Below, piece after piece: positions 38,393 through 64,000 of a stretch of DNA of 64,000 nucleotides. Source of the DNA: Brachybacterium sacelli (GTDB taxonomy: Bacteria; Actinomycetota; Actinomycetes; Actinomycetales; Dermabacteraceae); NCBI RefSeq assembly GCF_017876545.1, contig NZ_JAGIOD010000002.1, positions 1 through 64,000 on the forward strand, in the 5' to 3' direction. Below the pieces are notes generated by a model, which did not search any database, was not told the DNA's origin, and saw nothing but the letters and a program-made list of their open reading frames with translations. The position numbers and the translations under genes were made by a program. Position 1 is the first letter of the stretch. Every line of letters begins with the position of its first letter.

Positions 38393-39940
38393 GTGACCAC
38401 GACCGAGCCGAACCGGTGGACCGACCGCCGCAGCGACGCGGTGTCCGCGCGCAAGGAGGCCTACGAGCAGCTGCGCCGAGCCAGCACCTGGCGACTGCTC
38501 GCCGCGACCAAGGCCCCTGCCGTCCTGGCGATCCTGCAGTCCGTCTTCCCGGCCGGTGATCGTCGGCTGCCGCGCAGTGAGCTCGTCGCCCGGGTGGGCG
38601 CGCATCTGGCCCTGCTGCACGACGACGAGCAGGCCCCTTCCGGCAGGGACGAGGACGCCGACGGCGGTGAAGGTGGTGGCCGCGGCGGCCGCACCTCGGT
38701 CGAGTACGTCGACACCTGGGTGCGCGAGGGCTACCTCACCCGCCGCGACGACCCGCAGCGCACCGAGACCACCTTCGAGCCCTCGCCCGCCACGATCGAC
38801 GCGATCCAGTTCATCGCGTCCCTCGAGGAGCACCGGCCCACCACCACCGAGTCGCGCCTGACCCTGGTCGTCCAGCAGTTCGAGCGACTCGCCCAGGAGA
38901 CCGAGACCGACCGGGACGTGCGCCTGGCGGACCTGCAGCGCCAGCGCGAACGGGTCGAGGCGCAGATCCGGGAGCTCGCCGAGGGCGAGCTCATGCTGCC
39001 CAGCGAGGAGGCCTCCACCGACCGTCTGCGCGACATCCTCCAGATCGCCTCCGAGCTGTCGGGGGACTTCCTCCAGTACCGCGAGGACCTGCGCGGCGTC
39101 GACCTGCACCTGCGCGAGCAGATCCTCTCCCCGGAGACCTCCCGCGGTGAGATCCTCGAACAGCTGCTGGCCGGGGACGACCTGCTGGGGCAGTCCAGCG
39201 TGGGCCGCACCTTCACCGCGTTCTTCCGGATGCTCAACGACCCGGCCCGGACCCGCACCGCCCAGGAGCTCGTGGACCGGCTGCTCGAGCGCGACTTCGC
39301 CCGCAGCCTCAGCCGGGACGAGCGCGAACGCCTCGCCAACGTGTTCAGCGACCTCTACGAGCCCGCCCAGGAGGTGCTGGACGTCAAGACGGACCTGTAC
39401 CGCTCGCTGGCGCGTTTCGTGCGCTCCCAGGACTTCCGTCAGCACCGGGTGCTGCTCGAGGCGCTGCAGGAGGCGCAGGGCGTCGCCCTGGCGCAGAAGG
39501 ACGAGGTCCCCACCCGCACCTCGTTCCCGCTCGACCTCGAACTCTCCCGGGTGCTGCTGTCCTCGGTGGCCCAGCACCGGCTCAAGGACCCCACCGACCC
39601 CGGTGCACCCGCCGAGGCCGAGGTCCACGACGCCACCGCGCTCAGCATCGAGGTGCTGCAGGACCTGGTGCGCACCCACGACATCGACGTGGTGGGTCTG
39701 ACCGGCCACGTCAACGACGTGCGGGGCCGCTCCGGGCAGGCCTCGATCGGCGACGTGCTGCGCGAGAACCCCGCCCAGCAGGGACTCGCCAGCGTCATCG
39801 GCCTCATGTTCCTGGCCACCTCCCATGCGCAGGAGCGCGAGGGATCCACCGAGATCGTCACCTGGCGGGAGCTGGACGGGAACGACTACGCCGCGAGGAT
39901 CCCCTCGTTCTACTTCCTGGACGACGTGCCGGTGGAGTGA
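38393..39940 (+). CDS. jetA: Wadjet JetA / MksF-like kleisin (DUF3375)
   Basis: This 515-residue protein matches DUF3375: [20 protein letters not shown] at the N terminus, a winged-helix segment [15 protein letters not shown], then [20 protein letters not shown] and a coiled region [16 protein letters not shown]. In type I Wadjet systems this is the kleisin/MukF-like subunit that bridges SMC heads; the complex extrudes loops and cuts small circular DNA. The usual neighbours JetB and JetC are not adjacent but lie at 45969 and 63030 on the same strand. It starts with GTG behind its own TAGACT hexamer and appears intact. Confidence 0.85.
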
Positions 39941-40124
39941 GGCGGGCCGTGCCCCTCCGCTGTGCGTCGACGAGGTGGTCGAGGACCAGTTCGTCCGATT
40001 CCGTCGATTCCCGAGCACTTTCGGACAGGTGTCGATATGGTGTGGGTCACGCGACTCGTCCGATATGTCGCCCGGCGCACCGCAGCGCCGACGGGGCCCA
40101 TCGGGCACAGGGGGCACCAGACCG

Positions 40125-41651
40125 ATGCGCACCGTCTTCCTCGTCCTCCATTCCCTCGGACGCGCGGGGCGTTCGGCGGCCGTCATCGAGCAGTGCCGGA
40201 TGTTCCTCGCTCTGGGCTTGAAGCCCGTCATCGTGACTTTCACCTACGAACCGCGTTTCACGTCGGGGCTCGCCGCGCGGAAGGGCGACTTCGCCCTCCC
40301 CGCCGGGGTCGAGGTGCGCAACATCTTCCACGATCTCCAGCAGGCGGCGACGCAGGACCAGGACGCCGACTGGTCGCGCGAGCAGGACCTCGACCGGGAA
40401 GGCCTCCTCGTGAGCACGATCCGGATCGAAGGCGGGGAGCGCTCGGAGTACTTCGACCGCGCCGGACGCCTCGTGAAGCGTCGGGAGGTCAAGGACGGGC
40501 GCACGGCGAGTCTCGCGCTCTTCGAGCACGCCCGGCCGGTCGTGCGCCGCGAGTACGAGGACTCCGGGGCGTGCGGCCGGGAGCGCACGCTCGATCCCGC
40601 CACCGGTGCGACGATCGAGGAGCGGTACTTCACTCCTGACGGGATCTGCTACGTCACCCGGTATCTCGAGCCGGCCTCGGGTCGCCAGCTCGGGGCGTAC
40701 GTGCACCACGCGACCTCCGGTCAGAGCGTGCGCTACTCGCACAACACGCCGTGGCACGCGGCGTGGCTGGATCAGGTCCTCGCGGCCGAGAGCCCGCGGC
40801 CCCTCGTGATCGCCCAGCATCCCACCGCGATGACCAAGCTCCTGGACACCGACCCGGCGCACTCCAGCCGTCTGTTCCTCTCCCACGTCAACATCTACCA
40901 GGAGCCCTACGGCCCCGGAGCCCCCTTGCGCACCGATTACGCGCAGCCCTTCCGACGGGTCGAGGAGATGCCGGTGGTCCTCTCCCTCACCGAGGCCCAG
41001 GCGCGCGACATGAGGACGACCTTCGGTCCGGACCGGTGCGATCCGCTCGTGATCCCCAACGTGGTGCGCGACCGCCGGACCGACACGTCCATCGCGACCG
41101 TCAGCGGAAGGGTCGGGATCGTGTGCCGGTTGAGCGCCACCCAGAAGAGGGTCGACCACCTGCTGTGCGCCTGGCCGAGGGTGGTCGCCGCAGTGCCGAG
41201 GGCGCACCTGGAGATCGGTGGTCACGGCGGGGCGCGCCAGGACCTCGAGGAGCTCTCGGCAACGCTTGGGATCCGTGACAGCGTCACCTTCCTGGGCTGG
41301 CTCGACGACAGCGTCGACCTCATGGCGAGCTGCGTGCTCACCGTCTCGACCGGCCGCAGCGAAGGGTTCGGCCTCTCGATCGGGGAATCCCTCGCGGCCG
41401 GGACCCCCGTGGTCTCCTACGACATCGACTACGGTCCCTCCGACCTCATCCGGGACGGTGTGGACGGCGCACTGGTCCCCGACGGCGACCACGAAGCGCT
41501 CGCCCGGGGAATCATCCGACTGCTGCGGCGCGAGCGGCGCGCCGCGAGGGCGGGACGGAGCGCTGCCGAGCGCATGGCGCGGGAGTTCTCGCCGGAGGTG
41601 CTCGCCGCGCGGTGGAGCACTGCCTTCGCGCTCGCCGACACCCGGAGCTGA
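40125..41651 (+). CDS. GT4-family glycosyltransferase, TarM/GtfA-like
   Basis: This 508-residue glycosyltransferase has a GT-B fold. The N-terminal half is an unusual domain in which sugar-acceptor strings repeat (EYFDRAGRLVKRREV, YFTPDGICYVTRYLEPASG), resembling TarM and GtfA-type enzymes that put alpha-linked sugars on teichoic acids or serine-rich proteins. The C-terminal half carries the GT4 nucleotide-sugar site with TGRSEGFGLSIGESLAAGTPVVSYDIDYG (EX7E). I chose the ATG at 40125 because the longer frame runs into jetA. It may decorate the teichoic acid made by the genes at 46-60 kb. Confidence 0.78.
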   Translation: MRTVFLVLHSLGRAGRSAAVIEQCRMFLALGLKPVIVTFTYEPRFTSGLAARKGDFALPAGVEVRNIFHDLQQAATQDQDADWSREQDLDREGLLVSTIRIEGGERSEYFDRAGRLVKRREVKDGRTASLALFEHARPVVRREYEDSGACGRERTLDPATGATIEERYFTPDGICYVTRYLEPASGRQLGAYVHHATSGQSVRYSHNTPWHAAWLDQVLAAESPRPLVIAQHPTAMTKLLDTDPAHSSRLFLSHVNIYQEPYGPGAPLRTDYAQPFRRVEEMPVVLSLTEAQARDMRTTFGPDRCDPLVIPNVVRDRRTDTSIATVSGRVGIVCRLSATQKRVDHLLCAWPRVVAAVPRAHLEIGGHGGARQDLEELSATLGIRDSVTFLGWLDDSVDLMASCVLTVSTGRSEGFGLSIGESLAAGTPVVSYDIDYGPSDLIRDGVDGALVPDGDHEALARGIIRLLRRERRAARAGRSAAERMAREFSPEVLAARWSTAFALADTRS

Positions 41652-41722
41652 GCGCCGCCGCCTGCGTCGGTGGAATCGCTCGCGCTCCCGGTCCGCATCG
41701 CGAGGACGTCGAACCCCGGGGA

Positions 41723-62970: not shown

Positions 62971-63017
62971 CGCGGCCGTCTTCACGACTCGTGCCCCGTG
63001 AAGGCCGTGCTCCTTAG

Positions 63018-63029
63018 TAGTCTCTACGC
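63018..63029 (+). promoter_or_regulatory. Leaderless promoter -10 of jetC
   Basis: TAGTCT (63018-63023), six bases, then GTG at 63030. Confidence 0.5.
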
Positions 63030-64000
63030 GTGACTTCCGCGACCGACACCGCCCAGGACGGCCTCGCCCTGCCGGGCATGCCCGAGGCCGATGAGGCCGA
63101 CGAGACCGCTCCGCGCGATCCCGACCACCCGCATCCGGGCCAGTGGCGCCTGACCGACGTGCAGGTCTCGAACTGGGGCACCTTCCACGGCACCCACGAC
63201 CTGGCGATCTCGCCCAAGGGCTTCTTCCTCACCGGCGGCCCCGGCACCGGCAAGTCGACCCTGCTGGACGCGATCAGCGCCCTGCTCACCCCACCGCGCT
63301 CGCTGCAGTTCAACGCGGCCGCCTCCGACGCCGGTCCGGCCCGCTCGAAGTACCGCCGCACCGTGGCCAGCTACGTGCGAGGCGCCTGGGCGATGCACTA
63401 CGACCAGGCCACCGGCGAGTTCAGCCAGGAGGTGCTGCGGGAGAAGACCACCCTGTCGGTGCTCACGCTGCGCTACGGCGACGGGAACGGCGGCACCGTC
63501 CAGCTCTCGCGACTGCTCCTGCTGCACGCGGGCCACAGCGCCGACTCCGACGTCAAGAGCCTGTACGTGATCGCCCGCACGCCGCTGGACGTCACCGACC
63601 TGCGGCAGTTCGTCTCCTCCCAGATCGAGGGCAAGGCGCTCGAGGCCGCCCATCCCGGCACCCAGACCTTCCGCCAGTTCCGCGAGTACCGCGCCGCCTT
63701 CTGCCAGCTGCTGGGCATCCCGGACGAGAAGGCGCTCGGCCTGCTGCACAAGATCCAGTCCGCCAAGGAGCTCGGCGACGTCAACGCCCTGCTGCGCGAC
63801 TACATGCTCGATGCGCCGCGCACCTTCGAGCTCGCCGACCAGGCGCTGGCGAACTTCCAGAACCTCTCCGAGGTGTACGAGGCGCTGGTGACCGCCCGTG
63901 AGCAGCGGGACCTGCTGCGCGGCCTGCGCGGCAACCACGAGGACTGGACCGCGATGTGCGAGCGCGGCGGTGAGCTGGTGGACCGTCGGGCCGACATCGA
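63030..64000 (+). CDS. jetC: Wadjet JetC / MksB-like SMC ATPase, cut by window end
   Basis: The first 323 residues are present. They show QLSNWGTFHGTHD-like opening (here VSNWGTFHGTHDLAISPKGF), the Walker A motif GGPGTGKST (about 69-77) with LLDAISALLTPPRSLQFNAA, then SYVRGAW and LREKTTLSVLTL. These match the N-terminal head of the large SbcC/MukB-like ATPase of type I Wadjet. The coiled coil, signature motif and Walker B would follow outside. JetD would normally come next. It starts at GTG behind TAGTCT. Confidence 0.85.
   Translation, partial: MTSATDTAQDGLALPGMPEADEADETAPRDPDHPHPGQWRLTDVQVSNWGTFHGTHDLAISPKGFFLTGGPGTGKSTLLDAISALLTPPRSLQFNAAASDAGPARSKYRRTVASYVRGAWAMHYDQATGEFSQEVLREKTTLSVLTLRYGDGNGGTVQLSRLLLLHAGHSADSDVKSLYVIARTPLDVTDLRQFVSSQIEGKALEAAHPGTQTFRQFREYRAAFCQLLGIPDEKALGLLHKIQSAKELGDVNALLRDYMLDAPRTFELADQALANFQNLSEVYEALVTAREQRDLLRGLRGNHEDWTAMCERGGELVDRRADI

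Follow-up and report, generated by a model that had tools for sequence, protein, structure and literature searches.

The closest described systems to the genes considered here are type I Wadjet (JetABCD, or MksBEFG) and the condensins MksBEF and MukBEF. One proposal is that MksBEF and MukBEF arose when a JetABCD defence system shed its nuclease, and MukBEF took the place of Smc-ScpAB in enterobacteria (both according to an excerpt of PMC10586767). In Corynebacterium glutamicum the four-gene form, which includes the nuclease MksG, is a plasmid defence system, as stated in an excerpt of PMC10123090. Here, homologues of jetA, jetB and jetC were analysed in Brachybacterium sacelli, in a window comprising the first 64 kb of contig C2 (NZ_JAGIOD010000002.1) of a 4.87 Mb genome of two contigs. 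The initial annotation of this window had proposed a plasmid-defence Wadjet system with its genes dispersed through a teichoic-acid locus. We favour instead, with a probability of roughly 0.7, that in the Dermabacteraceae (Brachybacterium, Dermabacter, Helcobacillus and relatives) Smc-ScpAB was lost and an intact, type I Wadjet-derived JetABC, which has lost JetD, now serves as the core chromosomal condensin.

Strong Pfam and PADLOC profile scores (Table 1) identify the three genes as homologues of type I Wadjet jetA, jetB and jetC, in agreement with the initial annotation, and the layout that it described is also borne out. The genes are intact and lie in canonical order on the plus strand, with 6163 bases between the profile matches of jetA and jetB and 16566 bases between those of jetB and jetC (∼ 6 and ∼ 16.5 kb). 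The jetA and jetB frames are open at full length in the window, and the JetC protein covers positions 7-1104 of the 1112 in PADLOC JetC1, with a score of 1173 bits. The Walker A motif, the LSGGQ signature and the Walker B region (the latter with PF13558) are all present in the JetC ATPase head. JetB additionally scores 33.5 bits against the MksE profile PF21980 (cut-off 27); a second open start lies upstream of jetB, at 45867, and the profile scans used that longer form. The nearest structures in the PDB are solved JetC chains for JetC (E 5.8e-77) and solved JetA chains for JetA (E 2.8e-20), and JetB gave no PDB match by sequence. The window jetA is 76-88% identical to the closest named Brachybacterium sequences. 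DUF3375 and DUF4194 each have a single match across the whole genome. The JetC profile matches once at full length and otherwise only in three short ATPase stretches with weak scores; a second contiguous copy is therefore absent. Membership of unrelated systems is ruled out by order, strand, single copy and the trees described below. On each of these points, namely significant profile matches, no contiguous copy elsewhere and a common system, the identification made in the initial annotation holds. Of the traits of type I Wadjet, JetA, JetB and JetC are present and the contiguous operon and JetD are missing; the traits of a condensin of the MksBEF/MukBEF kind, an SMC-like (structural maintenance of chromosomes) ATPase with a kleisin and a KITE subunit and no nuclease, are all found, the ATPase head motifs being read from sequence only.

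Statements about the JetD nuclease rest, where possible, on PF09983 (JetD_C, the C-terminal domain). JetD_C has no match in the B. sacelli genome (JetD_N was not searched), which speaks against a plasmid-defence Wadjet. The initial annotation had advised a look for jetD to the right of the window; none lies there, and the two plus-strand genes that follow jetC have no PADLOC match, nor have the genes after jetC in Helcobacillus and Dermabacter hominis. Among 24 Brachybacterium genomes, B. sacelli included, 19 are without a JetD_C match. In three of the other five (G008, G009 and G023) JetD_C occurs together with a second, contiguous jetABC copy, and in G014 and G021 the match is a lone one, an orphan or fragment far from the core jet genes. 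In 27 named Dermabacteraceae genomes, which overlap with the 24, JetD_C is absent from 23 and present in four; three of these share coordinates with G008, G009 and G023, and the fourth, B. epidermidis (G054, taken together with G145), has a second JetA on the same contig number as JetD and is likewise counted as a case of JetD_C accompanying an additional contiguous jetABC. JetD never adjoins the core jetC.

The housekeeping condensin is missing from the same hosts. No ScpA match was obtained in any of the 24 Brachybacterium or the 27 named Dermabacteraceae genomes, compared with 14/14 genomes of other families in the order that have one. Across the order, 258 of 297 genomes (≥ 95% completeness) have ScpA; of the 39 that do not, the 20 listed are all Brachybacterium, and 18 of the other 19 are presumably G106, G206, G237 and G285 (Dermabacteraceae), 12 members of a small-genome family, f4, and the fragmented drafts G079 and G114. 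The f4 genomes G098, G151, G211, G231, G270, G289 and G307 are near-complete (0.8-2.2 Mb), presumably ScpA-less and without a JetA match. Smc (TIGR02168) was searched in 37 genomes. None of 31 Dermabacteraceae exceeded the cut-off, the best match being 44 bits and originating from the JetC coiled coil, whereas of six genomes of other families, drawn from the 14 above, four exceeded it and two fragmented drafts gave strong pieces (211 bits; 504 and 340 bits). The B. sacelli genome itself has no ScpA, and its best Smc match is 31 bits against a cut-off of 567. From the absence of ScpA and Smc we infer that JetABC would have taken over, and would have a chromosome-folding activity.

The inheritance of the jet genes fits such a role. 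All three are recognisable in 24/24 Brachybacterium, the jetA of the draft G001 as a contig-end piece only, and JetA is present in all 13 ScpA-less genomes of the family examined, compared with 19 of 53 ScpA-bearing genomes of the order. In the JetC tree the family forms one clade of 28 rows on a long stem with 100/100 support, and the accessory, JetD-linked copies fall outside it. A JetA tree made by a quick method agrees, and there the family clade (44 rows, several of them duplicate genomes) adjoins a group containing the JetD-bearing copies of G033, G034 and G028; long outgroup branches leave the exact sister of the clade uncertain. Together, these comparisons indicate that JetABC is inherited like a core gene, family-wide, at a single locus and as a single clade. 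The core jet genes are also under purifying selection: over five genome pairs the ratio of nonsynonymous to synonymous substitution rates (dN/dS) is 0.10-0.28 for jetA, 0.10-0.25 for jetB and 0.05-0.19 for jetC, and 0.07 to 0.60 for neighbouring genes. In one genome (G023:C1:2942539-2943007) the jetB match is split across two frames, by either a frameshift or a sequencing error.

Several observations weigh against this interpretation. Neither ScpA, in the 24 Brachybacterium and 27 named Dermabacteraceae genomes, nor Smc, in only 31 genomes of the family, was found, but ScpB was not searched. The tgt-like neighbour is better conserved than the jet proteins (for example 80.0-87.6% compared with 67.5-82.9%). 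G031 and G037, both of which keep ScpA and Smc, also have a contiguous JetABC with no JetD_C match, so nuclease loss alone is no proof of a take-over. In f4, which belongs to the same order, 12 genomes are presumably ScpA-less, and JetA is present in only five of these; ScpA loss, or divergence past the profile, is thus possible without JetABC. Finally, a divergent JetD beyond the reach of PF09983, or another nuclease acting in trans, may be present.

Some of these points lend themselves to the alternative that JetABC continues to act against plasmids or phages, either without JetD or with an unrelated nuclease encoded elsewhere, and that the loss of Smc-ScpAB is unrelated. The proteins do belong to Wadjet families, an accessory contiguous jetABCD sits between the core jet genes of G008, and the f4 genomes illustrate that ScpA can be missing where JetABC is too. 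However, inheritance in the family is universal, at one locus and in one clade, unlike the patchy occurrence elsewhere in the order (the 19/53 above), and no JetD adjoins the core genes; a retained defence role is considered unlikely. For comparison, a JetD-like match lies near four of the five f4 JetA loci, and G329, which is placed in the Dermabacteraceae, has ScpA, a divergent JetA (230 bits) and a JetD-like gene, all these JetD assignments being made with a rough local model in which some seed frames are wrong and antisense echoes occur. The f4 JetABC looks like a defence system, with ScpA missing or too divergent for other reasons.

It is quite unlikely, in our estimation, that JetABC is a supplementary condensin of the MksBEF type rather than a replacement, in cells relying largely on ParABS, FtsK and other factors. 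Deletion of smc is tolerated in some bacteria, C. glutamicum among them (as given in an excerpt of PMC11898615), and G002, the only genome inspected for them, retains ParA and ParB close to the origin. Against this stands the retention of jetA, jetB and jetC throughout the 24 Brachybacterium genomes under purifying selection. No 14-base parS-like core was found in the jet loci examined, a result that says little as these are fragments only. That insertions have scattered three genes now in decay, as the fragmented operon and the split jetB frames of G023 might suggest, is very improbable given the full-length frames in the window, the intact ATPase motifs, the retention across the family and dN/dS values well below 1 in all five pairs; motifs and dN/dS largely rule out a pseudogene reading.

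The favoured interpretation, a condensin that has replaced Smc-ScpAB, leaves the dispersal of the genes to be accounted for. When gene order was compared in related genomes, as the initial annotation had advised, the separation recurred across Brachybacterium and the contiguous form was found in relatives. In the 21 of 24 Brachybacterium genomes with jetA and jetB on the same contig there is always a gap; measured from one profile match to the next, it spans 1.7-36.2 kb, with a median of 4.2 kb. The same applies to jetB and jetC in all 19 genomes that have them on one contig; here the gap is smallest, at 1.6 kb (1614 bases), in G009 and ranges from 5.4 to 37.1 kb in the other 18. In the remaining genomes at least one jet gene is on another contig. 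An assembly artefact is ruled out, as the layout is the same in other genomes, several of them single-contig.

Intermediate stages are visible among the relatives. The Dermabacteraceae isolates TAE3-ERU27 and TAE3-ERU5 have contiguous jetA-jetB-jetC. In D. hominis, Helcobacillus massiliensis and the L126 genome jetB adjoins jetC and jetA lies 2-4 kb apart, and in a Dermabacter metagenome-assembled genome jetA is ∼ 17 kb from jetB-jetC. B. equifaecis (L120) has 0.44 kb between jetA and jetB, occupied by an opposite-strand MGMT-like gene, with jetC 3.9 kb further on, and in G106, of another genus of the family, both gaps are open (2.6 and 1.2 kb). To the left of the jet genes a common anchor is a gene that we take, from its sequence, to be tgt-like (cluster 12); it was found in 8/20 regions, most of the others having ended short of that far upstream. 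Right-hand flank genes (clusters 20, 21 and 31) are also common to relatives. With both flanks in common, the insertions occurred in place, and the comparisons indicate that an ordinary contiguous operon was opened by inserted genes, the separation being old. Moreover, the jetB-jetC junction is open in Brachybacterium and G106 and closed in Dermabacter and Helcobacillus, which suggests that it opened more than once. The earlier proposal of an operon opened by insertion with its function kept is therefore upheld for the opening in place, by the relatives, and for the constraint on the proteins, by dN/dS; its plasmid-defence function, with no JetD, is not.

Table 1. Features of the B. sacelli window
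Feature	Position	Strand	Remarks
tgt-like gene	31570..32853	+	Left-hand anchor common to Dermabacter, Helcobacillus and the contiguous TAE3-ERU operon
jetA (kleisin, DUF3375, MksF/MukF-like)	38393..39940	+	515 aa; PF11855 449 bits, PADLOC JetA1 492 bits
First gap	39941..45980	mixed	Gene calls and Pfam
Glycosyltransferase	40125-41651	+	First gap
MGMT-like gene	41723-42118	-	First gap; Pfam
Sulphur transporter	42200-43267	+	First gap
TusA	43329-43559	+	First gap
Coiled, low-complexity, membrane-anchored protein	43632-45779	-	715 aa; divergent, upstream of jetB; no Pfam match
jetB (KITE subunit, DUF4194, MksE/MukE-like)	45981..46682	+	233 aa; PF13835 142 bits, PADLOC JetB1 192 bits
Second gap, teichoic-acid/polysaccharide cluster	46893..60450		Pfam; placement varies by species
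Teichoic-acid cluster members			Family 2 glycosyltransferases with TarS linker, CDP-glycerol glycerophosphotransferase-like, pyruvyl transferase, ABC exporter
Further teichoic-acid cluster members			SDR, IspD-type cytidylyltransferase, GlfT2-like glycosyltransferase
ABC ATPase of the cluster	54791-55705		Label without its own profile scan
Fused ABC ATPase and siderophore-interacting protein (SIP)	60887..62941	+	PF00005, PF04954, PF08021; 88 nt upstream of jetC
jetC (SMC-like ATPase)	63030..64000 in window	+	N-terminal 323 aa in window; full gene 1132 aa, end at contig position 66428

The inserted genes differ in constancy, and what fills the gaps varies from species to species. All 13 Brachybacterium regions compared have the MGMT-like gene in the jetA-jetB gap. 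The ATPase/SIP fusion (cluster 6) is present in 10/20 regions compared; in the jetB-jetC gap, seven regions have it within a siderophore-type transporter, together with a periplasmic binding protein and two FecCD permeases, and three more, the window included, have the fusion without the rest. Among complete inter-jet regions, teichoic-acid genes occupy the jetB-jetC gap in seven and the jetA-jetB gap in two (G010 and G017), and were not seen in those of G011 and G019. This shifting placement among species, together with the opposite-strand genes between, argues that the teichoic-acid cluster is a passenger, and speaks against the suggested regulatory link between defence and surface-polymer genes. 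Opposite-strand genes lie inside both gaps of the window, so a single simple transcript of jetA, jetB and jetC is impossible. Gene orientation is the only argument that the jet genes may have promoters of their own, as none was detected in a sigma-70 scan of the region before jetB; jetC might share a transcript with the siderophore gene that precedes it.

Three neighbours may be added. In G011 and G008, proteins whose start resembles that of the 715-aa low-complexity protein are also encoded upstream of jetB. Directly after jetC is a 169-aa gene (L003:11605-12114) without a Pfam or PADLOC match; found in 12/20 regions compared, in Brachybacterium only, it is fast-evolving (57-62% identity between G000 and G002 or G021) and is possibly a lineage-specific partner, or a plain neighbour. 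In G008 (L152-L154) the accessory contiguous jetABCD lies on the opposite strand inside the core jetB-jetC gap, beside genes that, by resemblance, presumably form a type I restriction system; this looks like a defence island within the opened jet operon.

A mechanism can be proposed for the replacement of Smc-ScpAB by JetABC. JetC dimers, closed by JetA and JetB, would reel chromosomal DNA into loops in the manner of MukBEF and MksBEF, and without JetD the completion of extrusion on a small circle would no longer lead to cleavage. As housekeeping genes, each transcribed from its own start point, the jet genes would no longer have to remain in one operon, and envelope, iron-uptake and other genes could have settled in the gaps. 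We give even odds to the fuller proposal that the Dermabacteraceae are a natural, stepwise case in which an immune SMC complex became the only chromosomal condensin, with JetD lost, Smc-ScpAB lost, the operon then dismantled, and ParABS retained, perhaps with a new use in loading JetABC. Brachybacterium would be an independent take-over in Actinomycetota with the intermediate steps still visible.

The open-licence PMC literature yielded no report that connects Wadjet with either Brachybacterium or Dermabacter, none that connects structural maintenance of chromosomes with Brachybacterium, and, judged by title, none on a Brachybacterium condensin. The events from which MksBEF and MukBEF originated are old, whereas here relatives keep the steps, in the form of contiguous JetD-less JetABC, half-open and fully open operons. 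The same genus offers accessory JetABCD copies for comparison, and G329 offers a member of the family that keeps ScpA. The proposed origin through JetD loss thereby becomes testable in culturable organisms, and one may ask how a former defence SMC is loaded onto the chromosome and kept in check there.

Overall, the locus resembles type I Wadjet in its JetA, JetB and JetC homologues, in gene order, in its SMC-kleisin-KITE make-up and in its nearest solved structures, but differs in that JetD is missing, the genes are apart, presence is universal and vertical at one locus, and the host is without ScpA and Smc. It resembles MksBEF of Pseudomonas aeruginosa in having three subunits and no nuclease; P. 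aeruginosa, however, also has SMC (according to an excerpt of PMC7485682), which was not found here, and the present lineage is actinobacterial and closest to JetD-bearing JetABC in the JetA tree. Compared with enterobacterial MukBEF, it belongs to another phylum, ParAB is kept (in the single genome inspected), and close relatives still have a contiguous form without JetD.

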